DNA from: Datnioides undecimradiatus
Taxonomy: Eukaryota > Chordata > Actinopteri > Lobotiformes > Datnioididae
Length of the DNA: 64,000 bases
Direction: 5' to 3'
Assembly (NCBI GenBank): GCA_008933995.1
Contig: WARS01000052.1
Location: 3,038,001 to 3,102,000 of the forward strand
The first letter of the stretch is position 1, and every line of letters starts with the position of its first letter. Below are positions 24,432-52,000 of this stretch, piece by piece. The position numbers and the translations under genes were made by a program. The notes under the pieces were generated by a model. The model was not told the DNA's origin. It did not search any database and saw only the letters and a list, made by a program, of their open reading frames with translations.

Positions 24432-27400
24432 CACACACTTATTGACTGACCCTGCCTCCCCACCTGTCCATGTTTGCAGGATGCAAAACGGAGTGGGATG
24501 ATATCGGATGCTGGCTGAGAGCTGAAGTCGGGCAGGTGGTCAACGTATCCTGCTCTGAAGTCTTTCAGCATTTCTCCAGCAATCAAGGTTGGTTTCCATG
24601 TCAACCGCAATCTCAAAAACAGAGAAAAGACTACACAAATCCCTTTCGTCCAATCAATAGCATAGTTAAACTAGAGATAGTAATGTAGAAACCCCATTAT
24701 CTACTTGTACGCTGTCACTCCACCACTAACCATATTTATCTGTATTGTATAATCTGCAGCACTGATGCAGGCTGGAGTGACTCTGATGAAGGAGCACAGT
24801 ATGAATTATTCATGTATGTTTGTTGGCAACGATATATGTTATGCTCTGGGAAGTTTCTGGCAGGAGAAATGACGTTAAATCTTGTCTGCAGGGTTCATAC
24901 GTCACAGTTGTGAAACGACAGTGTCGATGTAAACCCATGGAGACACATTCTGAAGTTTTAATAATGTAACCGCGAGAGTAAAAGTGTTAAATATTTACAT
25001 TTTATATTTAGAGGGTTTTTTTTTTTGACGCCGTTACTTAGAGAAACATCTGTGTTTAATCATTCAGGGCTTGAAATAATGAAGAGTTACATAAGAAGTC
25101 ATTTTAAATCAATTATTCATCATTTGCAGCTGTAAATAAGTGTTTTTTGTCTTCTGATCTAAAGGCACACTGAGGTTGTTTGCTCTCTGGATTGTCATTA
25201 TGATAGCCTCGTTACAGGAGATAAGGTCAGGATCATTAGGGAGTAATGTCTTTTCCTCTTAACCTTGATGGGAATCATGCCTCATTATGATCCGAGATCA
25301 CTCAAACAGACCGGAGTCTTTTTGCTTTCAGTTGGCTGCTCTGGTTCCAATTTGCATTTCTGTGTGACTTTAATTCAAACAGTCCAACTCGTGCCTGCAT
25401 GCGCGTCCTGCAGCAGCCTGCAAACGTTCAGATGTGCGATCCCACAAAGGGTGCAGGGAGCGATCCAGCTGACAAGCTTCTCCTCACACCCGCTGTGTCC
25501 AAATGGACGATAACCAGGAATAAATGTCAGTCGACTCGAACACGGACATGAGGGCGAAAATGTTTTGACTGAAAGCACTGATGGAGTGAAATGGTCCAAG
25601 AGAGGAAATGTCAGTGAGCCGAAAGTAGAGCGCACAGAGGAAATGACAACTTTCCATAACAATCAAGCTACAGTGTGTTGCTTATAATATTAGATACTTG
25701 AAACTAGGAGAAAAATTAAAATATAACAGTGAAAATACCATCAAATACACAGATGCAGGTGATTTGATGAGTTTGTTTGGATTTTGGGGTGCACTATACT
25801 TTTGTTTTTTCCATTTTGATTTGTTTCCTACTGTAAATTTGCAGAGTACAACCAGCTAGACACTCCTACACTTACCCTCTCCTGCTGTATGTGCAGGAGA
25901 ACCTGTGGTGACTTTCAAAGCCGTGTCTGGGGCCTGTGTTTTGTTTGTCTATTCTGGGCTACTGTAGGGAAATGGCAGCACAACATGGCAGAGTCTGCGG
26001 AAGCCAGTCGCTCTCTCTCTCTCTCTGTAGATATGTTAACAAAGACATAATACAGGAAAAATGCCCCCTGCGACTATTATATTTTCTATTATAGGATATT
26101 TTTACTGATGCATCAATGTGTAAATACCTGTTGTTGATTATTTTAACAACCTTTCATGCTGGCTGGTTGTTTAATCTATAAATGTAGGATACGTGTACAG
26201 CACTTGAGTAAATAATCACTAAAATAATGACTTGCTGGTGACCTTAGTGAAGCATTTAGCAGCTAAAGACTGTAAATTTACCAGAAAAAGTTCAGTATAT
26301 CAACATAAAATGTGGTGATTTATGCACATCTTGTTTCCAGAGGACCAAAAAATATGTATATTATACCTTATACAACATTTTGAAGAACCCAGGAACCTTT
26401 TCAGGAACTCATAGACTCGACTTGTGCTTTCACAGAAGTAGCTGGGGTCTAAATGAAGCTGCAGACAAGTTAAATGAGACAGTGAAGTATGACAAACGAG
26501 TTGAGCTTCTAAACTTGTAAACAGTTTTTGAATTCGTGCTTTCTGCTCCCACATCAGGGTTTGTTTACAGGAACTGCACCGCTAACGGCTGGTCAGAAAT
26601 GTATCCGCCCTACGAGGAGGCGTGCGTCTTCAGTGACGACAGCGAGCCTGAATCGGAGGTATACGGACACGTCGTTGTAAATGTGCCAGTCACTTAACAT
26701 ATTTTTATTGTTTCTGCCCCCCAGCCTTTGCTTGTCCTCCCTCGCTGCTTCCTCTCTAATTCAGACCAACTTGTGGGTTTAGTGCAGTGGTCCTCACTGA
26801 GAGAAGGAAACCAACAAAGCAAAGCCAGATTTATCAAGAAAAACAGTTTGGGGGTCCAGAATCTGCAAAACACAAATAAATCTGTCCCTTATTCTGAATT
26901 TTTAATCCCTCGTCTTGTATTTTTTATTTTTTTTTACCCTGCAGTCTGATTTTAACTTTGTTTGATTAGCAATTGATCCAATTTTAGCGTTTGTTGTACC
27001 TAAACCGGCACCTGTTAGTTTGGCTAGTCCATCGCTACAACATGACGAGTGTTACCGAACAGGTGACAGTTTCACTCTTCAGTTCAGTCGCATTATTTAG
27101 ATGTTTAATAAAAGCCCCCAAATATATGAAAATGCTTGTTTATAGCACAGTTTGCGGTGTGTAAGAATATTATGCATTAGCTGGGTTATCTTGTGATCAG
27201 TAGCTGACATGTTAGCCATGAGCTAAAGCTCATCCTGCATCAGGCTCTGTAGTTGTGTGTTTAGTGCAAAGAAAAATGCGTTTACCAAATTTTTGTTTCA
27301 AGAAAATTTTTTTTTTGGATAAAACATAGTCACAGCACTTAAATAAAAATCAGAATTTTAATCATGATTCGTGCTGTAGTGAGCTTTTCACCAGTTTCCA

Positions 27401-30400
27401 GTCATGATAAATGATCACACTGGCGAAAGCGCACCAGTAGTTGCGGTGGCGACACGTCACACCTCAAGCTCATCACCCATTCATACATTTGACGTCATCA
27501 CAGTTTGCTCACGCTCTCCTTTTCTCACTGCTTCTCTCTCTCCAGACGAGTTACCTCTCTACGTTCAGACAGGTTTACACTGTGGGCTACGCCACCTCGC
27601 TCATCTCCCTCATTACAGCCATAGTGGTGTTTACAGCCTTCAGGTGAGTTCGGGACAGCACACACTGTCCTAGATACACACACGAGATGAGGGCAATAAA
27701 AGCGACTACACCTAGATGCTCACTCCCTCAATATTTGTGGCGTCAAGAGCCTGGAGAAGAGCTGTTTTAGAGAACAGTATGTAGCTGTAACACATCGGAC
27801 AAAGATACAAATATCCAGATATTCATTTGATCAGCTGTCAGATCGGTTAAAACCAGTTATATGAATTCTAATGGATCATCTTACACATGCAGATTCATGC
27901 AGATGATTGTCTTCTTCTGATTGTCTTATGAAACACTAATTTACATGTGAAGCATATGTGAGTGGTTCATGGTCGAGAATAACTAAGTATCTGTTCGATG
28001 GATAATATCCTGTATTTTACAGATATACAGGGAAACCCTTGCAATCCCGAAACTGCATTATAAATCTGCATAAATTCAAGTATTTGCCATCAACAGTCAA
28101 TCAGAATAGTTATATAGTGTGTGGAAAAGGTGCTAAAATGACAAACTCACAGTAAATTTTGTATTCTGAATGCTTTTACAGCAACTTTTAACTCATTTCT
28201 CCCTTTTTTTCTTTATGGGCACAAACACAAACAGTAGGTTCTGAGTATTTGATGTCTTTTAAACCCAAGATTTCAATTAAAAGTTACAGTTACAATTAAA
28301 AAAGTTGCATTAAACTACCGGCGGCAGGCAGATGATGCTTATTTAAACAGTGTTTTTCGAAATAGCAAGCTGCACACTAGCTGGTGTGTTTACACAGTGC
28401 TCTGAGAGTAGAGGCGGCAGCAGTGTCTGTAGGTCTTCACTGTAATGCAGCTTTAAGTGGCTCATTACAGATAAAACGATTTGTATATATATGTTTATCT
28501 TTTACTCTCCTTTCTGTCTGGTTGTGCTTCTTTCAGGAAGTTCCGCTGCACCAGAAACTACATCCACATCAACCTCTTTTCCTCCTTCGTCCTGAGAGCC
28601 AGCGCTGTCTTCATCAAAGACACTGTGCTGTTTGCCGACGAGACCCTGGACCACTGCTTGGTGTCCACGGTGAGCACGCTAATTAGCCAATAATGTTGCC
28701 GTCATGAAGCAGATTCCCACATCTGCTGTGTGATTGAGTTAGCAATGGTCAGGGACAGGAAAGGGGAGCGAACGAGGGGAAGACATGTGGCGAACTGATG
28801 AATGGCACCTGTCATTTCCAGCGAATCCTTGTCATTAGATTGGATTGATTAATTACTGTAGCAACAATGCAGAGCAGGTTAAACACAAACAACAGCAGGT
28901 TTGTTGTATTTTAATATGAATGAAGATACTATAACGCTTCCACTTTGTTCTGCAGTTAGTTTGGTTTCCTGGTTTGTGACAGCAGTGAATCTTCACACCC
29001 CCTGTGGCGACAGCTGTGGCCAGAGGCCAGGTTTTCCATCCATCCATCCCATTCTGGTTAATGCCACATCGCCTGGAGCGAAATACTGCAAATTTAGCAC
29101 AAACGTCCACTTGGACTCAAGGCTGAACCGAACAGATTTTCTAGAGTCATAGAGGATCTTTCAAAACATATTTTGTCCTAATTATGAAAACATAATGCCA
29201 AATAGGATGAAATAAGGAAATTATTATTATATTATATTTATCTGGCTGACTGAGACGGACAACTGTGTGTCATTAATTCTTGTTTTCATTTGAAATGAGT
29301 CCATTCAACTTGTGGAGGAGAGTTTTTTGAATTTCTTTTTTTTTTTTTTTGCTATTTGCAGCTTTGTCAATACGATATATACAAATGAAATGAATACAAA
29401 ATTAATTTTATATCATCATTGCACTACCTTAGTCTTCAATATAGAAGCATAATCAAAAGGTTTTTAAAACATATTCCAATGATTTACGTCTGCTGCCCTC
29501 GGTGCTTGGTAATGGGTAACACCATAATACATATAATATTTTGAATTTATTGTCAAAAAAGACTGTTTGACGCATTAAGGTGGTGAAAAAAAGTTTAATA
29601 ATCAACCCTGCAGAGTGATCTCAATGTAGCACTGCTGATGGACACACTCTATTAATATATTTTTTATTGTATTCATACAAATAAATGCTATATGGCAGCG
29701 ACATCAAGGCTCTCGTATAATGGAATTTGTTTGTGTGCAACTGCACTGAAAACCACTGAAATACAAATTTTGGTGACTTTGAATTGAGCTATTTTATGGT
29801 TTATGAGAAAATTCCAAGTTATTAAATTAACAATATAATATAAATAATATAATATAAAATAATAATATAAAAACCTGAAAAAAGCATTATCACAAATGTG
29901 AAAACAGGACTGTTTTTCTTAGCTCATAAGGAGCGTGGAAGTCTGGAAAGGCAAGTTTAATGGCATTTCAAGATGCATGCATTAAAGTAACAGAAAGTCA
30001 TATATATAAAAGGACGGAATATGAAAAAAGATGTGTTTAAGGTGTAGTGCGTAATTATAAGATACCATTAATGCCCTTGCTGCCGTACAGAAAGACTCTA
30101 CTAACACTTTATTTCCTCCATCTCTTCCTCTTGAGAGAAAGTTCCTAATGACTCATCTGGACCTCGCAGCTGTACCGTGTGCATGGCTTCAGCGTTGAAT
30201 CACTTTGCTCTGTCGCATCCTCTCCAGACAGCGTGCAAGTCAGCCGTGGCTTTCTTCCAGTTCAGCATCCTGGCCAATTACTTCTGGTTGCTGGTGGAGG
30301 GCATGTACCTGCAGACCCTGCTGGCCCTGACCTTCGTCTCTCAGAGGAAATACTTCTGGTGGTACATCCTGATTGGATGGGGTGAGTGGACCGAAGAGGT

Positions 30401-33400
30401 TGCGTGTGAGGATGACAAAAGCCGCGACAGACTAACGATCAAGTGATGTTTGGTTACATTTAAACACATATACACAATAGCTACTCTTGGTTTTAGTCTT
30501 GTCTCCGCATGTTTCTGAGGTTTTTGAATTAAATCATTAGGTAAATCATGTAATGTTGAATTTGATAATGTAGTAGATACATACATATTTTGCTCAAGCT
30601 GAAACATTTCTGATTTGCGACTTCTGCACTTCTTCGGGTCGCCGTGTAGCATCTGAATACACCTTCCCATTGACTCTGTGAGCTATTACAGTGCCTTTGA
30701 AATCTGCTACACATTGTCATCTGATCTCGAAGTTAAGAAATAGAGAGAGGCTTTCTGGATTTACAGTCTCAAGGTACTGAATTGGAGTTAAACAAATTAA
30801 TATTTAATCACTACAAAGAGTTTCCACAGCTGTCTGGATAAAGGTTTTGTAGTTTATTACCTGGTTTTGCATTTTTAAACACTCACAAGTTTGTTTCCTT
30901 GACTTTGCAGTGAAACTCTGAGACACTGATGATTTTATTGCTGGATTTTCACAGTTTTTATTGACTTCTTGTAAACTGTACATGGCAGTGTTCAGGAGGG
31001 GAGCTCCAGAGTCGCTGATCTGACGTCAGTTCATTCACAGTAGAAAAACAACACACGAAGGAGCCTGTGATGCATAAATGTCTGCGTCAATCACGTTTGG
31101 GAACTCCTCAAACTCAAAATTTGTTCTCTAATGGGCGAGCCAACCCCCATACTGATCCTACACGATAACGTGGCACACTTGATCCTGTGTGAGTGATTCA
31201 GCTGGTCATTTCTGAACCTGCTGTTTGTGGTGTTTTTATTTTGAGGATTTCCTGTTGTGTGTACCTTTTGTTATCACACAATATGCTCACGTTCGGGTAG
31301 GAAATCTATTCCCAGACAATAATTCGGCGACCAAAAATGGCTGCTCATGTTCTTGTTTCCTCTGCTCTTCCTTTGTTTTCTTCCTTATCGTTTGCTTCTC
31401 TACGGATGTCCTAAGTGCTTTCCCTTTGTGTTTTCCTGTATTGCTTGGTCACCTGATTTCCATTGTCTTCCTCTCCCCACCTTATTGTCTCTTTGTGTTT
31501 GCTGCATATCTTCCTCTTTACGCCTGTAGTGCTTCCACTGCGGTTCGACAGCCTTTGTCTATATCATTTCCATCCTGTTACCTCGATGTCACAGTCTAAT
31601 CAAGAGACCGCATGCTGAGAGGTCTCCCACCAGCCGTGTGTGGGGCAGCCGTGGAAGTGAGAAACAGCAGCACACCTGAGTTTTTAAGACTTCCTGAAAC
31701 TTTTTGCCTACAGAACATACGACTGCCAAAACAAACATTTCTGGAGGTCATGCTGATCTTTCTGCTCTCCTGTCTGTTTATCGTGAAAGTCAATAAAACC
31801 TTGTAAAGCTCAGCCAGCGCTGAGACAACTGAGATGGTCGCAGGAGTATTTCTAATAAGGATACAGATTGAACTTGGCAGGATGTGGTGAAGTGTGGCAG
31901 CCGGATGGATACTCCAATCCCCCTCTTTACATCTGTGCAGACCCAGCACACCTGTATCTACTCAGACAATCACACGCACAAAGGGACTAATAACCCACAG
32001 AGGGAGGGAGCGCAAAGATGGTGGAGGGCATGACAGAAACCTACCAACTCTGGTGATCCACTTTCAATCTAGTGCCTACATGAGGTTCACATATTTGGTG
32101 TTTATTGAAATGTCTAAAGAACAATTGGACACATAGATATGAAGATCCATAGGCATGAAGATGAACCCTGGTAGCGCTGGTCCAATTTATCATCTAGTAG
32201 GTGCAGAGAGAGGTTTATGACTAAAAGGCCAGACCCTCACATGCTAATTTAATAAGCTGGAACATATTGACTTAACAAACATATTAGCATAGCTCTAAAT
32301 CTAAATTTAAAGTCTGAGATTGTATAGGAAAAGTTTATTTGAATAGTAAACTGGTTATTTTAATCCCAGTGCCACTCAACATTTGTGGCAATGTAGTCTA
32401 AGATTGCAGTTTGACACAACTTAAGACAAAACCAGTTTCAACAAAACGGTCTGTACTGAGGCATTTATTAGCTTCTGACTCTGGTAGAGTAGGTAAAAGG
32501 TGTAAAATGATCCCAAACCACGCACATTTTGGCATTTTGGCTAATTAATTTAATGTTTATTCACTGAGCTGCACCTGAAACAGTCTTAAGCCCCAGTCGG
32601 GAAGCCCGCCTCTCTTAGAAAACTTCTAGCATTATCACTGTGGGCATGTTAGCATGCTGACGTTAGCATTCCATCATTTATTCAGAGCATCGCTGGCTCC
32701 AAGAACAGCCTCCCAGAGCAGCAAGCTTTGCTGCAACCATCACACTTCATGCTCCGCATTTGATGGTGAAGGGTGATCACCTACTTCCAACACATATATT
32801 ATTAACAGGATCACTCCTTTGTGATAATTAATGCCAAATGTGCATTGTACATGAGTTTGACTCCCAGCGGTTATAATTATGATACTAAATGACAGTCTCC
32901 ATTCATTCGTATGTGCCAACAAAACTCATTTAGTAATGATTCCAACATAAAACTGTGCACTTGTTGCTGAGTGAAATCTGGACCCAAATATCTGCAACAA
33001 CCCAGCGTGTGGGTGTGTGTTTGTAAGTGCATTTGTGTGTGTGGCCATCACTCAGTTTTCAGAGTGGCTCTGATGTGTGTTATCAGCGCCGTTCCGGTTT
33101 GTGCTATCTTGCTCCCTCTCTTGTCTCCTGCTTTTTATCCTGTGTCTGTTTCTTCTGCTGGCATGGAGATGCAAGAGGGAGACAGATAAGTTTGATAAAC
33201 TGAGTAAGCACCGTGTTTTATATGCCGAGCAACATTTTCATTAATGCATTAAACATGTGAATTAGAGCTTTAACGTCAGATTAATTTTACTTGACAGCAT
33301 CACAAGGCATCAATAATTAATCCCTGCTCTTATGTTGCAGGGCTCCCGTCAACGGTTCTTATACTTTGGGTGTTGACCAGATTCTTCTATGACGATAGAG

Positions 33401-36400
33401 GGTAAAACATATGACATGATATGCAGCAAAGCAGATTATGCTGTGATAATGTTGTGTAGTGGCAGTAATGCTTCGCTTTGAGTGAAACATAATTGTAATA
33501 CTGAATCTTATGTGTCTGTATTTGCAGTTGCTGGGATGACACGGACAATGTTGGTATTTGGTGGATTATTAAAGGACCGATAACAGCCTCGCTGCTGGTG
33601 AGTGAGCAGCAGTGAAACTGTACCGCTACTGTCTGACTGTTCTCTAAGCCCGCCCCCCTTAGTGGCAGTTCCTAGGTAATGGCTTTGGTACAATTGGTAG
33701 AATTTTTTTTTAAAGGTTGTTTCACTTATCAGGAGCATTTCCTCCACTTTTTATGCATTTTCCAATTTTCACATTAAACCCTCTTGCAAAATTCAGAAAA
33801 ACCTCGAAACATTGCAAAAGAGTTCTTACGCTACAGATACGTTACAGACAAAAACATCCCGTCCATGGCAACCAATGCCACTCATTCAGTGTCTTTTCTC
33901 AAATTTGTTTTCATTAAATTGTGTTTTTATTTCTCCAACTGCGTGAAATGTTTCTACTCCAGGTCAACATTGTCATCTTCATCAACGTGATCCGGATTCT
34001 GGTTCAGAAGCTTAAATCCTCAGCCATGGCCGGGAACAATGACACTGGGCATTTTATGTGAGTCACAAACAACAACAACAACAACAACAAAAACCCCCAT
34101 TAAACTCCTGAATCACAAGACCGAGTTTTGAACCCAACTGAAAGGCTCGAAGGCCAACAGGGAGTTTGAAAGCACAATTTATTTTCACAAAGTAACAACA
34201 CAAATACGTCAATAACAAATGACAAAATCTAAACATAAAATCACTCTTACTAGGAAAAATCTAAACTAACAAAAAGTCACTCGTTCGAGGAAACACATTC
34301 TAGGAATTTACAAAGTAACAAATGAATGAATCAAACCAGACAAAGTAACAAATGAATGAATCAAACCAGACAAAGTAACAAATGAATGAATCAAAACTAG
34401 GCAAACCAGGAACAGACGAGACAAGGCAGAAATCATGAACAGGAACAGGGCGCTGGTTGTCGGACGCAAAACAAACATGATGAACTGGGAGACGCGGACT
34501 TATATACACGTGAGGGAATGGGGAACAGGCGAAATCTTTCAAAATAAAACTTGAAATGACAAGACAATACAGACACCAAAACAAACTGAAAACTTGACCA
34601 TCTTACTGAACCGTGACGCTGAATGGGTGGAAATTTGGTGACAATATATCTTTTTTTTTTTTTTAAAGGGAGCTTTCCTAAAATCCATACAGCAACAAGG
34701 ATATATATAAATATCTCAGTAAAGTCAGCAATACCAGAAGCTTCTTCCCAAAGAGATAAGAAGAGTTTGGATTGATGGACGGAGCTGCCTCAGCAAATAG
34801 TGTTGGCAAGAGCGTGTATCAGCAGAGCAGCTAGTGAGGAGTGTCAGGCTATAAAGGCTGCCTTGTTCACTTGATAATGAGATTGGACGTTAGTTCCCAG
34901 CAGGTAGTCGTACAGCTGAGATATGGGCTATTGATTGCGGGGGAAGAAAGAAGCAGATGAAGTGAGGCTGCTAATACAGAGAACAAACGGCTTCATGTCG
35001 TACATGACGTTTATCTTAGCTCGGCTCCGGATCCTTTAAATATTTAGAAACTGAGAGGATTTTAATACCAGTTGAGAAATTATGAAGAATTAAAAATGTA
35101 TAACGTAGATAACTGTTTCTTTATAAAATGATTAAACAGTTGAGGTGGGAGTTTACAGGGATGGTGTCATGAGTATCAATAATGCTATATGCTAGTCACT
35201 GACTTATAAAACAATGCAGTATTTTTACATTGGTTACATTACATTTACATTTTACATTGGTTATTTTAAGTTGTGTTAGCTGAATGAGCTAGCATTAGGC
35301 TAACTTAATAACCTAGCTTCATTGCATTTCTTAGCTCTTAGCTAAGAACTGTAGCCTCCTTAAGTACAAAGTGGAGGTAGGCTACATGAACATTACTTGT
35401 TTTTCTCCTTAACAGCATCTCAAAGGCAAATATGGTTTTTACTTAACTACATTTATCTCTCAGCTTGAGTAACTTGTTACTTGCAGCATTATGTAAAATA
35501 ATATATAGAATACAGACAAATTAAAATTAGCTCCATGTTAGCATACAATGAGCACATTAATGCATCAGTGCCTGTAATATCATAATTATAAGAAGGTATA
35601 GTGTCATGCACGTAAATAACATTTCCGAACATTGGTGCAGGAGTCGTAATAGTAACAGCAGTAGCATAACAGTGTAGTATTGCTGTTTGCAGATTTCCCA
35701 GTGAAGTGCTTGAACAGGTGCTGAGACTTAAAAAATGAAAGAAAGAAAAGCCTCGTGCGTGTTTTTCCCTCCTCTTGCCATCTCTCACGCTCTGTGCCTC
35801 TCTCTGACTCTGCTTTTTCAATGTCCCTCTCACCAGTCTTCATCCTCTCCTGCTGCCGACGCTTCTGGGACTCGGTACTCTCCCCTCTGTGTGCGCGTGT
35901 GTGTGGATATGTATTACTCATGCTGTGGGAACGTAACACATTACTCAGTCACAACATGGGGACAAAATGAAAGTGCCCATATTGTATTTAATTTTGAGGT
36001 GAAGGCTACGTTCAAAGTCTGGGTAACTACCTGCCACAGCAAGCTAGCATTAGAGATGTTGCTTAGCATTTAGCAGTAAGATGTGCTTAAGTACAGCCTC
36101 AAAGCTGGAAGTTTGCAGTACCTCCTTTTCTGCACAGAATAAATTCAGAGACTTTAAAGTTTCTTCTTTCAGACTAAGAACCAGTTTTTCAGTTTAAGGT
36201 AAAACTGCTGAGTGAGGAGTTTTTACATGTCGGAAATAGGTGGCAGTTTCTTTGAAGAGTTTACTATGAACAGGGAAAGGAAGGTGATTTGATGCAATCC
36301 CTTGATAAAATGCTGAACTCTTCCCTGCAGTTTAAGAGAGAAAATGTTGTGTCTGTGAATCTGCTCCCAGAAATCCTGCTCTGCCTGCAATGAATCCCTC

Positions 36401-39374
36401 CTTCCTTTCAACATTCGGTCGGTGCAGATTCCACCTCGGATGAATTAATTTAGAATGAGTGCAGCGCATAAAAATAGCACCGGATACCAGAAATAGATGT
36501 CTCCTCTATCACCGTGCGACAGGATTGTTCCACCGGTTCAATGAGTGTTACGCACTTTCAAAAGCTCCATCTCTGTCCTGCAAACTTCAATCTGATTCAG
36601 ACGGATCTGTGACGTTAACACAAAGGCACAAATCTCAGGTGTGACAAAAGACAAAACACAATCCTATTATGGGCTTGAAAATAATCTGACGTGGGAATTT
36701 TATTTTTTTTTCTCTTTAATCTTTCAGCATGATGCCACTTCTGATCAGAGTGATTGTTCTGGTCATTTAGTAAATTGAAGATGATGTCATGTCCTAAAAA
36801 AGTGTTCTAGTTTGACTGACTGACTTTAAATCTGACGTAATCAGAGAACAAACCAGGTGCAGACATCTCTGTTTGTGCTGGACTAGCTGCAGACTGCAAC
36901 CAATGACGTGTAAATTTGTGATTTTTGTGGGATGTATCACAAAAGTGGGGTTATTCTTTTTGCAAAAAACGTTATTTGGAGCAAGTTGGTGCAATAATAT
37001 AATGTCGCTACAATTAAAGAACAACATTTGCGAGATATTCAGGCTTCGCTGCTGAGTGCCAAGCTTTGAGCCCAGAGCGTCAGGGTTTCTGTTTGTTGAC
37101 ATTTTAATCTATTCCACTGATAGGCCTGATGACGGTGTCGTTTTAAAGGTCAGCGTGTTTAATAAAGATTCAGTATCTGCCACATCTGGGTCTACCTCTG
37201 ATGAAACTTGGCATAATGCGTTTTGCTGTTGTATTCTGGCATTTAAAAACTAAAACACTGATTAGCCATAGACACCGATAAAACTTCAAAAGGCCACAGT
37301 TAACATTTTCTTCTGTTTGCTTTGACTCTTAAAGTTTTCTCCGTAACAATAAATATTAATTAGAAAAATGTGAAAAAGGTGCGGGATTAGGCTGCTTTGG
37401 ACTGCGTGTGTATGGTTTGATCAGATTTCATTGACACTGGTCAGGCAACATAAGCAAATTGTCATCATGTTTCATCTATATTTGATTAATGCATTGGAGT
37501 GTGTGATATCACTTTTTATAAATGCTTAAAAATACAGACACAGATAAAACAAAAAATACATATAGTTCTTGAATGAAACAGTCCTATAAGTTCTCATCTT
37601 ATGTTCATGTAGCACCCATTGCTCAGAGGATGACAATGTGTTTTCAGGGCCTTTGATATGGATTAGCACAAGGCTCCCTGGACTGATGTGTAGTCTTCTT
37701 TCCATGATTCCTTTGTTGTTTGTTTTCCTCAGGAGGCTGGCAAAATCCACCCTGTTCCTCATCCCTCTATTTGGGATGCACTACACAGTATTTGCCTTCC
37801 TGCCTGAGAACACCGGAGTGGCAGCCAGGCTGTACATCGAGCTGGGGCTGGGATCCTTTCAGGTACGAAACAATAGAGAGGGATGACAGGGTGGAACAAA
37901 AAGTCCAGATTTAAAAATCACAAAAGACCTCCAAAGATGAATTGCTTACACGTTCAGGGTGGACTCCCAGCAGACAGTTTGACTTGTTATCATAAGAAAA
38001 CCACAGGTGTTGCTGATCACATTAACAATGGATCTATTCAAGTGCCTCAGTAAGACGTGACTGTGTGCCGTCATTAGTTTATTATGTACACATGCTTTTA
38101 CAGTGACATGTTAAAATGTCTTCTATGAAAGATGTTTTTTTGGAATTAAAATGAATGGAGGGGCATTTTATTAAAGATATGTCAGTGGAGCAGTGGCAGG
38201 AAATGAATGGGGGGCTGTGATAAGGATCCAGACTTTAACCAGGGATGCTGCAGTGTACAGTCTGCACCTTTAGCACAACTCTACCTTCACGATTTCAGAC
38301 AGGTTTAATGACTCACTAAAAGTTGTATAAGTGCAAGTTGTGCAGCATATAGACCGAAGGGCTTTTGGGCTGGCTAATGGGCTGACAAAACAGAAGACAT
38401 GTCATTTAAAATTGATGCAACTAAAATATTGATATGAACTTTAACATAAAGTTAAATTATTAATACATTTAAGTGTGTAATAATTTGTCACTTGAAGTGT
38501 GTAAAATTAAGAAACATGTATAAACTAAACTGCAATGTGCTTTAACTAAGACTTATTTTGTTTTTAAAAAAAAGCACAATCTGTGAAAGTTACACCCAGG
38601 AACCACTTTGAAACTTCAGGGGAACTTTGGTATTTTTCAAACGGACTCCATTATTACATGTTTTGACTACTGGGAAGAACAAGTTTTGAATTGTCCTTTT
38701 AATTTTACACATTGTACCCTGTTTTTTGACTAACATTTTAATACTGGACCAATTTCAGAAACTGTTGTCCTCAGTCATCATTTGAACAAAACATAGGAAA
38801 ACTGTGTGAATGCTGAAAAATACAGAAACTCGCTTTCCGGGCTGCCTGTACCTACAATTGTGGTATTTTAAGTGGCATGCATTATGAAACTGAAGAGTTC
38901 TGCATTTAAAACAGTCACAATGTGTTTTGTGTTGCAGGGTTTTGTGGTGGCACTGCTTTATTGTTTCATGAATGGAGAGGTAAGTGAATGGAGGTTTTTG
39001 AGATACTGACGTCTGACAAACTTTTAATAAAGACAGAGTTAATCTCTTAGCTGAGAGAGTCAAAAACATACAAAAAGCTCCAGTTTCACAATGTGTGTAT
39101 TGCTATGTTGACCTCCAAAGTGTCTTTTCTGATACTGCCACAGCAAACAGGGGCAGCAAAGTCAGAAATGTTTCATTTGCACAAAATAATGTGTAGTACA
39201 GCTCTGCACAAATGCATTTTTCTGCAGGTCCAGGCAGAGCTGCGGAGGTGGCTGAGGAAGTGCCACAATCAAAATCATCTCACCCCAGCCAAGCGAAGTA
39301 TCACTCAGATCACAATTAGAGCTCGCGGGGGGCTCGGGCGGCCTCCTTCTAGCGGTAACATCTCTTCAGTATGA
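8582..39374 (+). CDS. ghrhr: Growth-hormone-releasing-hormone receptor-like class B1 GPCR (13 coding exons)
   Basis: Join of 8582-8665, 9433-9535, 24480-24587, 26558-26658, 27546-27643, 28537-28669, 30228-30381, 33341-33401, 33528-33597, 33963-34057, 37733-37862, 38938-38979 and 39228-39374: 1,326 nt, 441 aa, all GT-AG and in frame. The product is a Gs-coupled peptide-hormone receptor of the plasma membrane. It has a signal peptide, a cysteine-rich hormone-binding domain (residues about 30-130), seven membrane segments (about 138-390) and a short tail. All six ectodomain cysteines and the WDD-CW and NCTANGWSE motifs are present, with three N-glycosylation sites. The TM6 block [11 protein letters not shown] followed by LPENTG is closest to GHRHR; VIPR and SCTR mostly have [11 protein letters not shown]. 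Adjacency to adcyap1r1 matches human GHRHR-ADCYAP1R1. Class B1 receptor: near certain. GHRHR rather than another subtype, or which fish paralogue: less sure. Confidence 0.85.
9433..9535 (+). CDS. ghrhr: ghrhr exon 2: start of hormone-binding domain
   Basis: After acceptor TTTTCAG it reads [20 protein letters not shown] and continues to the first conserved cysteine and the glycosylation site NETS. Ends in phase 1 at AGCG|GTGGG. The IHPDC start resembles MHPEC in human GHRHR. Confidence 0.9.
9961..10325 (-). mobile_element. Non-autonomous DNA transposon (MITE), full length, with internal palindrome
   Basis: The ends are inverted repeats: AAGGTTCAGAATGTAGGATT on the left, and AATCCTGCACACTGCTCCTT on the right, whose complement is AAGGAGCAGTGTGCAGGATT. 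On the minus strand the body follows a common teleost repeat (GGTGGGGCTGCAGACTGCAA near the start, CCATTTCA near the other end). A partial relative lies at 25842-26115. No transposase is encoded. Confidence 0.7.
9991..10076. repeat. Perfect 40-bp inverted repeat with 6-bp loop
   Basis: The left arm 9991-10030 and right arm 10037-10076 are exact reverse complements, 40 of 40 bases, separated by TTATAC. It lies inside the MITE and could extrude as a cruciform or form a very stable RNA hairpin in the ghrhr pre-mRNA. Confidence 0.95.
11455..11545. repeat. ATCGAT-rich interspersed repeat fragment
   Basis: A cluster of ATCGATA/GGTATCGAT-type words (GATCGATCC, ATCGATATTATCGATACC, TGATCGATACC), including the local palindrome ATACCAACGTTGGTAT, matches the style of a widespread fish repeat. 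It is followed by unremarkable AT-rich sequence and a poly-G run at about 11777-11789. Confidence 0.45.
13195..13335 (+). repeat. CATGCTAACATG-type interspersed repeat fragment
   Basis: The stretch TTAGCAAATGCTAGCATGCTAACATG followed by CTAAGATGAAGTTCATGGTTAGC is a fragment of an abundant teleost repeat. Other fragments in this window are at 14840-15110, 19795-20045, 21565-21880, 32040-32240 and 32625-32670. Confidence 0.55.
14840..15110 (+). repeat. CATGCTAACATG-type interspersed repeat fragment
   Basis: It contains CTAACGTCAGCATGCTAACATG, then GACAATGCTAATCAGCTAG and, further on, AATTTTGACCCGATGATTG, in the same order as the other copies. It is diverged, with no coding capacity. Confidence 0.5.
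15715..16069 (-). mobile_element. LTR-like non-autonomous element (TGTCA...TGACA ends), diverged
   Basis: It starts TGTCACG and ends GCCATGACA, and contains the family hallmark TTCAAAATAAAACAGGAAG at 16030-16048. The orientation is opposite to the better-preserved copy at 61097-61520. It has no coding capacity and no clear target-site duplication. Confidence 0.55.
16185..16262. repeat. Decayed 'TTTTACTC...GAACACTTCTTCACCA' repeat fragment
   Basis: CCAGGCCTTTTATATGTAAT, then GAGTATTTCTACTTTTACTC and GAAGTATCTGAACACTTCTT, are recognisable as the tail of a very common fish repeat. Related fragments occur near 6105-6260 and 15520-15640. Confidence 0.45.
19795..20045 (+). repeat. CATGCTAACATG-type interspersed repeat, long fragment
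   Basis: It begins TAACATCAGCATGCTAACGT, continues through GTTCACCAAAGTGATCACCATC and TTTAGCATGCTAACAAACTA, then GGTTGATGGGGATGTCGTTA and GTGGTGCTAGAGG, and ends near AGGACCATGAACACC. It is one of the longest copies of this family in the window. Confidence 0.6.
21565..21880 (+). repeat. CATGCTAACATG-type interspersed repeat, long fragment
   Basis: The order of words is GTAAGCTAACGTGCTCA, GTTTAGCATGCTAACAG, GATGGCACTAGATGAAAAAT and TTCATCCTGAGGAGGACACG, then ATTTCATAGCAGTGCATCC. This matches the copy at 19795-20045. The open frames reading through it are repeat-derived. Confidence 0.6.
22371..23128. repeat. Tandem duplication, copy 1 (758 bp)
   Basis: Starts AATATGAAAACATCTAAATG and ends CGTTTTATTAAACTGCACTG. 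Copy 2 follows directly (offset 779 bp) and is nearly identical, differing by a few substitutions and by the length of a CTT repeat. The identical 72-aa open frames at 22524 and 23297 belong to the duplicated unit and resemble no protein I recognise. Confidence 0.9.
22794..23038 (-). mobile_element. Internally deleted LTR-like element, copy in duplication 1
   Basis: Within the duplicated unit, TATCACGG...GGACCCAAATGCACAAC... AAAATAAAACAGGAAGTCAA ...CAGAACCATGACA mirrors, in reverse, the ends and middle of the element at 61097-61520 but is only about 245 bp long. The same insertion is found in copy 2 at about 23568-23811. Confidence 0.6.
23150..23901. repeat. Tandem duplication, copy 2 (752 bp)
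   Basis: A direct repeat of 22371-23128, lying immediately downstream in ghrhr intron 2. The length difference is mainly fewer CTT units. Few differences imply a recent event or ongoing gene conversion. Confidence 0.9.
24382..24428. repeat. (CA)n microsatellite near ghrhr exon 3 acceptor
   Basis: An uninterrupted CA run of about 23 units ends roughly 50 bp before the exon 3 acceptor at 24478-24479. A short pyrimidine-rich tract still separates them. Confidence 0.95.
24480..24587 (+). CDS. ghrhr: ghrhr exon 3: hormone-binding domain core
   Basis: Encodes the [11 protein letters not shown] block and [15 protein letters not shown], with three conserved cysteines and a glycosylation site (NVS). 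Acceptor GTTTGCAG, donor CAAG|GTTGG, phase 1 at both ends. Confidence 0.95.
24588..26557 (+). other. ghrhr: ghrhr intron 3
   Basis: A 2.0-kb intron. It holds a partial MITE (25842-26115) and otherwise AT-rich sequence. No extra exon was recognised. Confidence 0.85.
25842..26115 (+). mobile_element. Partial MITE of the 9961-10325 family
   Basis: The order of words (ACCAGCTAGACACTCC, GTGCAGGAGAACCTGTGG, CTATTCTGGGCTACTGTAGG, GGCAGCACAACATGGC, then a CT run and GTAGATATGTTAACAAAG) is that of a known type of teleost repeat whose terminal parts appear in the copy at 9961-10325. The ends are eroded. Confidence 0.55.
26558..26658 (+). CDS. ghrhr: ghrhr exon 4: hormone-binding domain end
   Basis: Encodes [20 protein letters not shown] plus the last conserved cysteine, followed by an acidic linker (SDDSEPESE). 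It is 101 nt, the same as the matching adcyap1r1 exon. Donor GAG|GTATAC, phase 0. Confidence 0.95.
26659..27545 (+). other. ghrhr: ghrhr intron 4
   Basis: 887 bp of AT-rich intronic DNA ending in a CT-rich tract and acceptor CTCTCCAG. Nothing else was recognised. Confidence 0.85.
27546..27643 (+). CDS. ghrhr: ghrhr exon 5: TM1
   Basis: Encodes [20 protein letters not shown] and the rest of membrane segment 1 up to VVFTAFR. 98 nt, phase 0 to phase 2, donor CAG|GTGAGT. Confidence 0.95.
27865..28010. repeat. Diverged third copy of part of the 22.4-kb duplicated unit
   Basis: CACATGCAGATTCATGCAG, CTTCTTCTGATTGTCTTATG and GAAACACTAATTTACATG match, with divergence, the words around 22430-22560 in tandem-copy order. 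The tandem unit therefore includes an older dispersed repeat. Confidence 0.6.
28537..28669 (+). CDS. ghrhr: ghrhr exon 6: ICL1, TM2, ECL1 start
   Basis: Encodes [20 protein letters not shown] followed by [12 protein letters not shown] and the acidic ADETLDHC loop. 133 nt, as in the paralogue. Acceptor CTTTCAG, donor ACG|GTGAGC. Confidence 0.97.
28985..29160. repeat. 'TGTGGCGACAGCTGTGGCC...CCATCC' interspersed repeat fragment
   Basis: CCCTGTGGCGACAGCTGTGG, TCCATCCATCCATCCCATTC and CACAAACGTCCACTTGGACT, in this order, are the signature of a common fish repeat. It lies in ghrhr intron 6, the rest of which (28670-30227) is AT-rich and featureless. Confidence 0.55.
30228..30381 (+). CDS. ghrhr: ghrhr exon 7: TM3 and TM4
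   Basis: Encodes [36 protein letters not shown] and [11 protein letters not shown]. It carries the ECL1/TM3 cysteine and the family E-G-x-Y-L motif. 154 nt, phase 0 to phase 1, donor GGG|GTGAGT read as G|GTGAGT. Confidence 0.97.
30382..33340 (+). other. ghrhr: ghrhr intron 7 (3.0 kb)
   Basis: The intron contains a T-rich, TTTTATTTTGAGGATTTCCTG-bearing segment at 31230-31595 that may be an old LTR-like copy, and CATGCTAACATG-family pieces at 32040-32240 and 32625-32670. No conserved exon was found. Confidence 0.75.
32040..32240 (-). repeat. CATGCTAACATG-family repeat fragment, reverse orientation
   Basis: TTGGTGTTTATTGAAATGTC, AAGAACAATTGGACAC and GGTTTATGACTAAAAGGCC correspond in reverse to the downstream half of the repeat seen at 19795-20045 and 21565-21880. 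A short piece with CATGTTAGCATGCTGACGTT follows at about 32646-32666. Confidence 0.45.
33341..33401 (+). CDS. ghrhr: ghrhr exon 8: TM4 end / ECL2
   Basis: A 61-nt exon, the length found in the paralogue. Encodes [20 protein letters not shown]. Acceptor TGTTGCAG, donor AGG|GTAAAA read as GG|GTAAAA, phase 1 to 2. Confidence 0.95.
33528..33597 (+). CDS. ghrhr: ghrhr exon 9: ECL2 / TM5 start
   Basis: A 70-nt exon encoding [23 protein letters not shown], with the ECL2 CWD cysteine that pairs with TM3 and the family WWIIKGP motif. Intron 8 before it is only 126 bp. Confidence 0.96.
33963..34057 (+). CDS. ghrhr: ghrhr exon 10: TM5 / ICL3
   Basis: Encodes [20 protein letters not shown] and then [12 protein letters not shown]. 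95 nt, phase 0 to 2, donor TTTAT|GTGAGT. This is where the hop insert would enter in the PACAP receptor; no such cassette was recognised in ghrhr intron 10. Confidence 0.95.
34120..34618 (-). mobile_element. LTR-like non-autonomous element, diverged
   Basis: It carries the CAAAATAAAACTTGAAATGA motif at 34540-34559 and ends ACCGTGACG, like the TGTCA/TGACA family in reverse orientation. The outer left boundary is approximate. It has no coding capacity. Confidence 0.45.
34311..34400. repeat. 30-bp tandem repeat, 3 units
   Basis: Three adjacent 30-bp units, each CAAAGTAACAAATGAATGAA plus TCAAA(C/A)(C/T)AGA-like ends. Units 1 and 2 are identical and the third diverges at its end. Confidence 0.95.
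37733..37862 (+). CDS. ghrhr: ghrhr exon 11: TM6
   Basis: 130 nt. Encodes [34 protein letters not shown] and IELGLGSFQ. The [11 protein letters not shown] and LPxNxG residues are the best sequence argument for GHRHR. Donor CAG|GTACGA, phase 2 to 0. Confidence 0.97.
37863..38937 (+). other. ghrhr: ghrhr intron 11
   Basis: 1.1 kb of AT-rich intronic DNA. Nothing further was recognised. Confidence 0.85.
38938..38979 (+). CDS. ghrhr: ghrhr exon 12: TM7
   Basis: The canonical 42-nt class B1 exon, encoding [14 protein letters not shown]. Acceptor TGTTGCAG, donor GAG|GTAAGT, phase 0 both ends. Confidence 0.97.
39228..39374 (+). CDS. ghrhr: ghrhr exon 13: cytoplasmic tail and stop
   Basis: Encodes [12 protein letters not shown] (helix 8), a basic tail with a glycine-rich stretch ([14 protein letters not shown]), and ends ISSV before TGA. 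The final residues fit a class I PDZ-binding motif (S-x-V). The tail is unlike VIPR or PAC1 tails. Confidence 0.92.
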   Translation, partial: VQAELRRWLRKCHNQNHLTPAKRSITQITIRARGGLGRPPSSGNISSV

Positions 39375-46376: not shown

Positions 46377-49008
46377 GTATTTTAAATGCTAAATGGAGCA
46401 GTTGAGGTGTTTTTTTCACTTTTGGGTAATAATCAGGAAACATATTCACAACATTTCAGGTATCAAAACATATCATGAAAACAGGATGTTTATGAAAACA
46501 TCACAGAGTGTGTGTGTTTATCATAAACGGGGACAAAAGCTTACCTCTCCATTGAGGAAACAGTAGAGGACAGCTACAACAAAGCCCTGAGAAGGAGAGT
46601 AGAGACAAAAGAGGAGAGGAAAACAGCTTGAGATGGGAATACACTTTCATTTATAAAACATAACTCATCAGCAAAGCTAAAGACAGAGTCTGACTGTGGG
46701 TACAGATAGACTTCAAGCATTTTCAGACATTTCTTTTGAGAGCTATACTACAAAATAGTGTGTGCTGACAGCTCTGAAAGGCAGGAACTGTTGGAAAATT
46801 GGCAATTTCAGTGTCCAGGGAACTTAAATGTACAGTCACCAGTGAACTGCATGTTGTCTGTTGGTCTGTAACATCTTTTATGGAGGAATATGAAATTACC
46901 GTCAAAGAAAAATATGTATATTTCTCTCAAAAATGTGTCAATCAATTGTGCAATCACTTCCCTTTTTGCATCAAGTAAAACTCATCAAAACCAAACCTGC
47001 CTGAGAAAGGAACGCACGTCGGCGCGGGAACCACCAAAAATGACAGAAAACATCATAAACATACTTTGATTTTCTTGTAAAGTTGGGCCCATCTGCTAAC
47101 ATGGAGTAGTGGGTTATGACTTATACTGCATCCAGCCACCAGGGGGCGACAGAGATGTGTTTCGTTGCCACGCTAACTCATTTTCACAGTGGCTTTGTTT
47201 CGAATACTAGTCAAGTTATCTCATCTTTGACTTATTTGTGATCACTATAATTAAATGTTTTGTCCAACATACTTTCACCGTGGCTTTAAGTAACAACTTC
47301 GACCTATTTGGAAATGTGTTTAACTCGCTGACAGCTGTGTAAAGTGAGGGTAGAAGACTAGGTGTGAATAGCACTTGCGCTCTCCTAGAGAGCCTCTTTG
47401 TATACTCAGATGATTTATTATCCCATTATGTTCTCCAATTCATCATCTGGTATTTCTCTTTAATTGAAACTGGACGTTCAAGGAGCTGTGAGGGCCGTAA
47501 AAAGCATACCTGGAAGGATCCCAGTCCCAGTTCAAAGACCAGTCTCTCTCTCTTGCTGACATCTTCAGGTGAGAAGGCAAACACAGTGTAGTGAATACCA
47601 AACAGGGGGATGAGCAGGAGGGTGGAGCGCGCCAGACGCCTACACACACACACACAAACACACACAGTTTAATACGATTGATGTGCGAGTCGAACACAAA
47701 TCAAAGTCATGTTTGGCCGGTTCTGGTCAGTTGGATGTGATGCAAGGACGGAGCCACTGATGCAATGTCATGACACATTTTCTGACTTCTGTCGTGAAAC
47801 CGCTCAGTTAGACGCAGGTTTTCATTTTAAGTCACAAAGACTAGGCTTTAGGCTAAAAGTGTAAAAACGTTAGCGCTTTTCAAGTCGAATCAAGGCATCG
47901 CTGTTGTTTAAATACAAACTCAGTCACAGTTTTATAAAAAGGTGTTAGGCTGCAGATATTCTTTATTTCTTTTTGTCAACAAATCCCATAAAAAGACCAA
48001 AATCAACAATGAACTGATCTGGTCCACCAGGTGATTCCTGCCTTTTGTCATAATGAACCTAAACAGTGTAGTTTGTTTTGAGTCAACGAACACATAACAC
48101 TGTCCTGCTGCTGTAAAGACCCAGTAAAGCACCAAATGTGTATTCATCCGCTGCTAAAAAATAGTCCCCAACAAGTGCACTACTTAGTCCTTATGAGTGA
48201 TGTTGGATAAATCTACAGTCACCACCTGTTTTAGGAAATTATATGTCAGTTTTTTCAAATTAAAACTGTGCACGTGACCCATTTTTAAAGATCTACATCC
48301 TCAGTAAGAATGAACACGTGGAGATTGTGAGCCACAGACGAGGTCGGGCTAGAAAGTATTGTGCGATTGTCTTTGGATTTGACGACAATAAGAAAAAATA
48401 ACGAATAACACCAGCCGCATCCTTTAAGACTGAGGTTAGAGTGAGTGTGGTAATCCATTGTTATGTTAAGATTAAGACAAGAGACACAGTACTGCAACAT
48501 GTTGCTGTAGTCACTCAGAGATTTATGCCTGTTCTTATCGCCGCAGCCTGTGTCGTGCAGAAAACGGCGTCTGACACACACAAAGGGGATGGAAACACAC
48601 AGAAACACATGACAAATGACACCTCAGAGAAATGGAGGACACACATGTGCAACACGGTGGTTTTTACAGTGCAGTCCAGTGACGCCCAGAGGTCCTTAAG
48701 GAGCAGAGCAGCAGCGTACATACTCTGAACTCTTTCAGTGAGAGATGTTAGAAAACGCTGCGATCAAAAGACAAATGAGTCAGATCTTAAAAGCAAAAGA
48801 TTTTTTTTACTTTTTGAGCAGAAGAAATTTGATCAATTTGGTGTGTGTGTGTGTGTGTTTGTGTATGTCTGTCTTGTCTATCTTTGTGAGGACGAGTAAA
48901 GAGAGGTAAAGAGCTGGTGTTAAGCACGTAGCTGTAATGGCTGAGATTAGAGTTGGGGGCTGGAGGATGAATCATGTAATTGAGGGTCTTTAAAGCACAG
49001 ATGTACAA

Positions 49009-49045
<37 letters not shown>

Positions 49046-52000
49046 AGACAGAAAGCGTATACATTTGGGAGTTCAGACCATTAAAAAACTCTAAGAACCC
49101 CTGGTGTAAAACACACACAGACACACATACAAACACATGCGATCGACACAAGACAGACACACAAAAACATGTGTGTCGGCGGCCAAACACACACACACGC
49201 GCACACACACACACGCACACACACACACACTTACAGTGTGATGGTGGATAACTCTGACATCCTGCACGAATGCTGAACAGCCTGTGTGGGCTCACTGAAG
49301 CATTTCTGAGCACAGCTGCTACACAGCACAAAGACAACACAACAATACAACAAAGACAGTGTCTTTAGGGACACAGACAGTCTCTCACTCACACACACAC
49401 ACACACACACGCGCGCGCACACACACACACACCTCACACTTCTTCACACTTGGTCACGCACGCACGGGTCTGAGCAACAGATGAGAATGACATTATCTGC
49501 AGGGCCTCCAAAGGCACCGTCCTGTGGGAGCAGAACAGGAGTGATGTCTGGCTACAGTACAACTCCATAATGAGCCTCAAGCTTCCTGCCAACAGGTACC
49601 ACAAATTAGTATATTCTGAGAAGCGTTGAGGACGACACATCAGATGAAGATTTGAAAATAGGACTGTTATGGCATTTACAAACACATGGCTTATGAATTG
49701 GAACTGAAATTGACTAGTTTTACAAGTATTAAATGGGAGTTTATGGGTGTGTTTTGAATGTTTGTGTGAAAGAAAATGAGTTATTCTATATTTTTCTTAT
49801 CATCAACAAGCCCAATGCAAACGCCAAAACCATCAATGTTCTTTCAGTACTTCCCTCAGCCTGTCTCAGCGCCAAACCTGTAACTTCTGCCTGTAAATCT
49901 GTAAAATCAGGTCGCAAACGCTGTAGTCGCATTTTTAAAAAAGGCTCGTGAGGACGTGGTTAATTTGTCACGGGCTATTTTCGGCTGTGGATTTGTCGCC
50001 CGGGTGAGTATTTATGGCAGCAGCACAGTATACGTGGGACTCACTCAAAAATAAACTGCGCTGTTGTTCATCATAACGAAGGCGCGTGTCACGGAGTGCA
50101 ACCGTGTCACTAATTTGTTTTTAACAATTTTAAACAACGATGTGCAGAGGAATGAGCTCTATCAGGGTTTAGCTGCACCGGAAGCAGCTTGTTGTTGAGA
50201 CCAGTTTGTTTATAGTTTTGATATTCTCCTGTGATTTGTTGACAATAAGGAAAATATAGAATACTGACATGTACTAGAGATCCTGAAATCATGTTAATTC
50301 ACTTTATTGATATTTATATACATCATTCTCTCTCTCTCTCACACGCACACACACAGTATTTACTGAAGACATTAGTGCATTTGATGTCTGCAGCTTACAG
50401 GTAAATGCTTGACTCGTTCCCCCCGATATCAGGGGACTGCAGCTTCTGAACCAGGATGATGATTATTCCAATGAAGAGCACAAAGTTGATCTGAGGGAAA
50501 CACAAATGACATGACACTGCAGGGCGAGCTGTCAGAAGTTAAAGTGCGCAGGTGAGCAGCCAATACACAGACCGCACAAACAAGTCGGGATGTGTCTCAC
50601 CATGATGGAGGCCACCACCGGCCCTTTGATCACCCACCAGAGGGCAGTGTTCTCATTTGTATCCCAGCATCTGGAGGCGGAGGAGAGAGAGAACAGCGCG
50701 TCTCAAGAATCAGTCGGCACGCTCTGATTCACTTTCCCTCCACGCTTGGTAATACACAGCTCCATAAAATAAGTCAATCAAAGGGCCATTTTCAGAGTAA
50801 GTGAGGTGGAAGAGAGGGTCAGAGAGGAGGACGGGATTTAAAATGGGAGCGGAGCAAACAAAAGAAAATCTAAATGACGAGTTAACCCATTCAGAAAAAT
50901 CAGTCCAGTAACTCAAAACGCTTGCGTTTGCTTAATATCACATATATTATCATGTACTGTGCCCGAGAAGGATTAAAAAGCTGAGGACTGTGGCTCAGAC
51001 AGGATGTAAACAAGAGCTCGTTAAACAGATATCGAAAGTCTCTATAGGCCTTATTTGTGTGCTTAAGCATTTAAACAAACATTGATTGGATTTATTCAAT
51101 ATGTCTTAACACACTGTAAAACATAAATTACCATTTCAATAGCATAGACAGTAAAGAATGAGGGAGCTATTTCCCATTTAGCTCTCATCTGTTCCCTGAG
51201 GGTAAATCTAAAGATGGAAGAGGAGTTTTACCCAGTGTCGTGAAAGTGGAGCCTCAAAACTGCCCAGACAGTGACACAGATGGTGGGTGTTCCTAAAAAA
51301 AAAAGAAGTTTTCATTAATAAAAGAAAGAAATACGCAGTTGTCACAGTAACACTCATTATGTCATAGATTTGGGTAATTTCAGTAATTCTTTATTTCAGT
51401 GAAATGCTAAAGTAGGCAGTGATATCAGAACACATGTTTTGTTGTTGTGAGCTGCTTCGTACTGTGTTTATCTGTAAATATCAGATAAGAGAAACTAGTA
51501 CGGGCTGTTGGATTCAGCTAAAGAAGAATGATAGATACTACTTTAGCAGTGTTTTGCTGTTGACAACTAAAAGGCCCCGGCAAATAAATAAATACAAAAC
51601 AGCTTCATGGTCCTTTCCCTGTTCCTCTAGGCGTAAGAAATGACAATAAATTGGCTGAATTCACAGTATGACCAGAAAGTGAAGTTTCCCTCTTTCCACC
51701 ATTAATGATAATCACTCAGGAACAGACACTCACCCCATCCTACAATGGTGTACCAGTAGAAGTAGCGTCTCTCGGGAAAGAAGGTCTCCACCAGCAGAGT
51801 GAAGAGATACAGACCCTCAATGAACAGCCAGAAATAGTTGGACATGACACAGTAATGGAAGAAGACCATCACCGCTTTACACGCCACCTGCACGGGGTAA
51901 CACGGGGAGACGTGCAGAGATCTAGTTTATCAGCGGATTCACATCTCTACAGCAACATCTGCGCTGCTTTGAACACTTCACCTCACTTAGAAACAAGTGC

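Follow-up and report, generated by a model that had tools for sequence, protein, structure and literature searches.

Dinucleotide repeat tracts around the hop exon of a Datnioides PAC1 receptor gene: predicted pairing and possible roles in splicing

Could the complementary UG and CA repeats that surround the alternative hop exon of a fish PAC1 receptor gene act as an RNA switch for its splicing? The question is raised by a 64,000-nucleotide stretch of Datnioides undecimradiatus DNA (contig WARS01000052.1, positions 3,038,001 to 3,102,000; hereafter the window, in whose coordinates positions are given unless stated otherwise), the minus strand of which carries a gene that by sequence similarity is adcyap1r1, encoding the stress-hormone receptor PAC1. 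Between the exons for transmembrane segments 5 and 6 (TM5 and TM6) its transcript contains, in order, a UG tract (UG1), the hop exon, a second UG tract (UG2), two CA tracts (CA1 and CA2) and a third UG tract (UG3) that reaches the TM6 acceptor. A sequence-only reading of the window had described these five tracts and proposed that mutually exclusive UG-CA pairings set the ratio of hop to null transcripts. I find all five tracts in the orientation described, with ends that differ by at most one base, so the observation itself is correct; the switch as proposed, however, is not supported when the intron is folded in silico together with controls. Tentatively, I favour a more ordinary role, in which the likeliest effect of these microsatellites on splicing, if they have one, is local and mediated by proteins.

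Tract pairing and a local, protein-mediated effect

Folds of 2880 nt and 1931 nt agree in predicting two nested stems: UG1 pairs with CA2 in a stem that encloses the hop exon, and UG2 pairs with CA1 in a 31-bp stem that lies 3' of the hop donor (the folding model leaves out proteins and kinetics). That CA and UG tracts can pair is thus borne out in the model. However, when the five tracts were excised and reinserted at random places, at least 30 UG-CA pairs formed in all 24 folds, 18 of the 24 relocated layouts equalled or exceeded the real one in stability, and six enclosed hop by at least 10 UG-CA pairs. Pairing is predicted elsewhere too: in 20 sampled pieces of the same contig, three of the four neighbouring pairs of opposite-type tracts no more than 1.5 kb apart form predicted stems along almost all of their length. 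Because randomly relocated tracts pair as well, the predicted pairing says little, and a special status for the present layout is not supported. The lesson is a general one, namely that in a repeat-rich genome predicted UG-CA pairing by itself is weak evidence.

That the folding controls reveal nothing special in the tract layout favours a local effect, which might work as follows. Dinucleotide microsatellites of the kind ordinary in fish would have expanded in the adcyap1r1 hop intron, placing UG1 near the hop acceptor and UG2 at the donor, where both would serve as high-affinity sites for proteins that bind single-stranded UG (TDP-43, or CELF proteins, which bind UG) and would tend to repress hop. 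The CA tracts would be hnRNP L sites, the first UG units 3' of the hop donor may extend its pairing with U1, and these effects would be superimposed on the known control of hop by Rbfox through a GCAUG motif at +95. Any RNA pairing would produce the nested UG1-CA2 and UG2-CA1 stems and not a stem that bridges to the TM6 acceptor. What the analysis shows is the sequence, the positions, the composition of the splice sites and the predicted energies; that proteins bind, and that hop inclusion is affected in any way, I infer.

Several facts are consistent with this account. As at exons controlled by TDP-43, UG tracts of at least 12 nt lie near the splice sites of a regulated exon, with UG1 71 nt away, across an interval that includes a U/UG-rich stretch, and UG2 at the donor. 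According to a review of TDP-43, binding near splice sites represses whereas binding farther off can enhance (PMC13343711). A preprint that used TDP-43 without its C-terminal domain on single-stranded (GU)12 gives a 12-nt site and a dissociation constant (KD) for the first binding event of at most 5 pM (PMC12697283), so that the affinity of TDP-43 for single-stranded UG may rival that of the duplex. Another preprint, which deals with the human cortex, refers to work that connects hnRNP L with AC repeats and TARDBP with GT repeats (PMC13174678). As for U1, it is predicted to pair with the hop donor at -8.0 kcal/mol, whereas neutral bases at +7 to +9 would give -5.4 kcal/mol, so that the UG at +7/+8 is predicted to contribute 2.6 kcal/mol; of the 14 donors compared, four are weaker than that of hop. 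Finally, Rbfox control of hop is in print (PMC3659299, PMC9823094, PMC3424503), and the first of these papers calls an Rbfox site shortly 3' of the hop exon experimentally validated.

Other points weigh against it. A GCAUG within 150 nt of a donor is expected 0.14 times by chance, and the one found here sits between UG2 and CA1, the arms of a predicted stem, and is itself predicted to be mostly paired (openness 0.06 when every tract is present, 0.29 when CA1 is removed and 0.15 when UG-CA pairs are disallowed). Structure could therefore matter for Rbfox, with the UG2-CA1 stem affecting access to the motif. This stem is predicted to be long and strong, so the tracts may pair in the cell after all. 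They may also do nothing at all.

Table 1. Exons, repeat tracts and the Rbfox-type motif in the TM5-TM6 part of adcyap1r1 (window coordinates, in transcript direction).
Feature	Position	Strand	Remarks
TM5 exon	50490-50399	-	splice signals and protein match; donor GTAAGC from 50398
UG1	49432-49390	-	ends 71 nt before hop; CGCGCGC interruption; longest pure GU run 21 nt
hop exon	49318-49235	-	84 nt, 28 codons, in frame; splice signals
UG2	49230-49187	-	two C-containing interruptions; begins within the hop donor GTAAGT (49234-49229)
GCAUG (Rbfox-type motif)	49140-49136	-	+95 of the intron after hop; sole GCAUG in transcript 50700-47500
CA1	49043-49010	-	pure CA, 34 nt
CA2	48858-48841	-	18 nt pure; imperfect extension to 48872
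UG3	47666-47642	-	one TTT interruption; continues into the TM6 acceptor TAG (ends 47640)
TM6 exon	47639-47510	-	130 nt; splice signals and protein match

Chance, clustering and contact with splice sites

The most serious rival is that the tracts are neutral microsatellites of a repeat-rich genome that affect hop splicing hardly or not at all, leaving it to be set by Rbfox and other factors, and I regard this as quite possible. The genome certainly offers the material: overlapping (TG)10 matches number 278,614 and 276,018 (about 555,000 together) in 581 Mb. Merged tracts of at least 12 nt number 40 in 20 pieces of 10 kb from the same contig (200 kb), compared with five in 1.9 kb at hop. Five tracts per 1.9 kb also occur in one of these pieces, L012, where three GT and two AC tracts lie within 0.9 kb (positions 745-1633 of the piece) in a composition that matches the hop cluster. 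Since this piece equals the hop cluster while the other 19 hold at most three tracts, the cluster is uncommon but not unique, and the Poisson figure of 4.8e-5 for five tracts in a fixed 1.9-kb stretch overstates the case, given that tracts cluster. Two extra pieces from other contigs contain one and ten unmerged tracts.

The position of the tracts tells two different stories. In 200,000 uniform random placements of the tracts within the TM5-TM6 span, a pair of opposite-type tracts straddles hop in 92.8%, a figure that favours neutrality. Contact of one or more UG tracts with a donor or acceptor arises in only 3.3% of placements, and two or more make such contact in 0.03% (0.0003), whereas two do so here, which counts against neutrality. 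Thus, the geometry needed for looping out hop is expected by chance and contact with the splice sites is not, although the uniform null disregards the GT and AG that splice sites offer, which may seed repeats. The flanks of 66 GT tracts (from 22 pieces plus the window) cut both ways as well: AG directly follows 12 of them and is the commonest ending, with UG3 expected to be among the 12, while GTAAGT or GTGAGT precedes just one, and this case should be that of the hop donor.

The TM6 acceptor likewise counts against neutrality. I compared 16 of the 19 acceptors of adcyap1r1 and a neighbouring receptor gene; those of the adcyap1r1 first extracellular exon, TM3 exon and C-terminal exon were left out because their exon starts are unclear, and several exon ends of the neighbouring gene were set by eye. 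Within this set the TM6 acceptor has the lowest pyrimidine fraction (0.55; the hop acceptor has 0.65), lacks C altogether and has a shorter pyrimidine run (3) than any other, so the suggestion that it lacks a polypyrimidine tract was right. Where that tract would be, the sequence is almost entirely UG, and UG3 at least should take part in recognition of this acceptor.

Predicted energies and competing structures

For the tracts to work as a switch, hop would have to be looped out, its donor masked or the TM6 acceptor bridged by pairings that exclude one another, and I regard this as unlikely. At 37 °C the free ensemble has an energy of -607.8 kcal/mol, equal to that of the nested state. Restricting the pairing gives -601.8 kcal/mol for UG2-CA1 with UG3-CA2, -600.2 for UG1-CA1 with UG3-CA2, -597.8 for UG2-CA1 only, -585.2 for UG3-CA2 only and -584.6 for no UG-CA pairing, the last value being also that of the run limited to UG3-CA1. 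The order is the same at 25 °C (free -769.3, acceptor-paired -763.1, unpaired -743.8). Pairing CA2 with UG3 instead of UG1 therefore costs about 6 kcal/mol, and UG3 has no CA partner in either free fold, 74% of it being paired with other sequence in the longer one. Furthermore, the polymerase reaches the CA tracts shortly after UG1 and UG2 but some 1.2 kb ahead of UG3, so that cotranscriptional folding should tip the balance still more towards the nested state. Both the energy and the order of transcription thus speak against the claim that UG3 brings the TM6 acceptor close by pairing with CA.

The two main stems do not compete, since they are nested and form together, and the main sign of partner exchange is that CA2 is predicted to pair with UG3 (14-15 bp) once UG1 or UG2 is deleted in silico. 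The base pairs expected to enclose hop fall from 90.9 with all tracts to 45.6 without UG1 and 19.4 without both UG1 and UG2, in line with a loop-out, but 62.8 remain when both CA tracts are removed instead. A stem around hop is predicted, as claimed, yet a quarter of the relocated layouts produce one too. Openness of the hop acceptor is 0.24 with the nested stems and 0.37 without UG-CA pairing, a difference that would suit a switch, and that of the TM6 acceptor varies little (0.31 in the nested state, 0.34 with UG3-CA2 and 0.24 without UG-CA pairing). The donor, in contrast, does not respond: openness at +1 to +6 stays at 0.55-0.61 across all eight runs at 37 °C, with or without tract pairing, and deletion of UG2, the tract supposed to mask the hop 5' splice site, lowers openness at -3 to +6 from 0.40 to 0.20. 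Folding with and without the tracts thus confirms the loss of hop-enclosing pairs in the absence of UG1 but predicts neither donor masking nor acceptor bridging. The precedent invoked for the switch does exist, as zebrafish introns with paired GT and AC repeats that bypass U2AF are in print (PMC6093180, PMC9198270).

An improbable alternative is that UG2 tunes the hop donor locally through a hairpin. At 49242-49224 (minus strand) the exon-end CACACU can pair with AGUGUG at +4 to +9, leaving a GUA loop at the exon-intron border, a layout that resembles the tau exon 10 hairpin. This hairpin appears in the minimum-energy folds of 19 nt (-5.5 kcal/mol) and 36 nt (-10.8 kcal/mol), and -6 to -2 are almost wholly paired in all five local window sizes. 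However, the 66-nt donor piece is no more stable than its dinucleotide shuffles (z -0.27; 74 of 200 shuffles at least as good), and I rejected the hairpin as a special element. The hop donor also stays open at +1 to +6 because the GUA sits in the loop, its openness of 0.64 exceeding the average obtained when the tract was replaced at random 300 times (0.46, standard deviation 0.17) and falling within the 0.19-0.85 of the other donors in the registers taken as right (15 rows, with one donor entered in two registers).

A GU quadruplex (pUG fold) was considered and rejected as well: the longest pure GU runs of the three UG tracts (21, 15 and 15 nt) fall short of the published threshold of at least 12 GU repeats (PMC12697283), here taken as uninterrupted. 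Least probable of all is a protein-gated exchange, in which a UG binder such as TDP-43 on UG1 or UG2 would free a CA tract to pair with UG3 and so aid the pyrimidine-poor TM6 acceptor, one protein thereby shifting both hop choice and TM6 acceptor use while the UG2-CA1 stem sets the openness of the Rbfox motif.

The gene and its known relatives in splicing control

The identity of the gene rests on several matches. A human protein sequence gave tblastn matches to a minus-strand class B receptor from 55102 to 45903, and the joined TM5-hop-TM6 translation contains the Pfam domain 7tm_2 and matches PAC1 chains best (1e-33), with VPAC2 second (1.5e-19). Hop encodes, in frame, a 28-residue cassette of the third intracellular loop, between TM5 and TM6, as expected of a PAC1 hop exon. 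Mammalian hop1 and hop2 arise by a 3-nt shift of the acceptor. Here, a tandem TAG/CAG acceptor (49321-49316, minus strand) would give cassettes of 28 or 27 residues, which resemble mammalian hop1 and hop2 by length (PMC2245808); the 28-residue length is that of the published cassette (PMC7292827, PMC2245808). Because the hop exon is confined to pac1a in zebrafish (PMC7292827) and hop was detected for PAC1A only in sea bream (PMC2245808), the Datnioides gene is probably the a paralogue. On the plus strand (24479-39006), another class B receptor gene lies tail to tail with it, and the joined pieces of this gene match PAC1 (5e-59), VPAC1 (5e-58) and the growth hormone-releasing hormone (GHRH) receptor (1e-52), leaving several candidate names. 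A perfect 30-bp unit is repeated 2.9 times at 34310-34395.

Why might the tracts matter? In zebrafish, the choice between hop and null PAC1 alters receptor signalling and the termination of the stress response (PMC7292827, PMC9823094), and if the tracts influence this choice, natural variation in repeat length could alter fish stress physiology. The present evidence does not show such an influence and mainly narrows what to test. Among the titles listed for part of the literature matches to PAC1, ADCYAP1R1 and hop, none concerned repeat tracts in the hop intron, which is weak evidence of absence. At this point, the tracts most likely either serve ordinary splicing proteins as binding sites or have no role.

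A close structural precedent comes from zebrafish, where in about 10% of introns a GT repeat 5' of the 3' splice site pairs with an AC repeat 3' of the 5' splice site (PMC6093180, PMC9198270). The hop intron resembles these in that a GT tract, UG3, takes the place of the polypyrimidine tract right at the 3' splice site, and in that it also contains CA tracts as potential partners for UG3. However, UG rather than AC follows the 5' splice site: the first CA tract comes 191 nt after the hop donor, and no CA tract of at least 12 nt is found in 49433-50398, after the TM5 donor. Moreover, the CA tracts find their partners in the upstream UG1 and UG2, not in UG3, in the predicted fold. Exons looped out by paired intronic repeats such as Alu (PMC11802352) offer a second parallel, in that complementary repeats flank an alternative exon, but the repeats here are short dinucleotide tracts, for which straddling is expected in 93% of random placements. 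With the Rbfox-controlled hop exon of PAC1 the Datnioides gene shares a GCAUG downstream of hop, although here it is a candidate site that is predicted to be mostly paired.

Finally, CFTR exon 9 has a UG tract near its acceptor, as hop has UG1 upstream. Here the role of TDP-43 is putative and 71 nt, including the U/UG-rich stretch, lie between tract and exon, whereas CFTR exon 9 is described as sensitive to TDP-43 (PMC13343711). Thus, hop resembles CFTR exon 9 as an alternative exon with a UG tract upstream, to which Datnioides adds a second at the donor.

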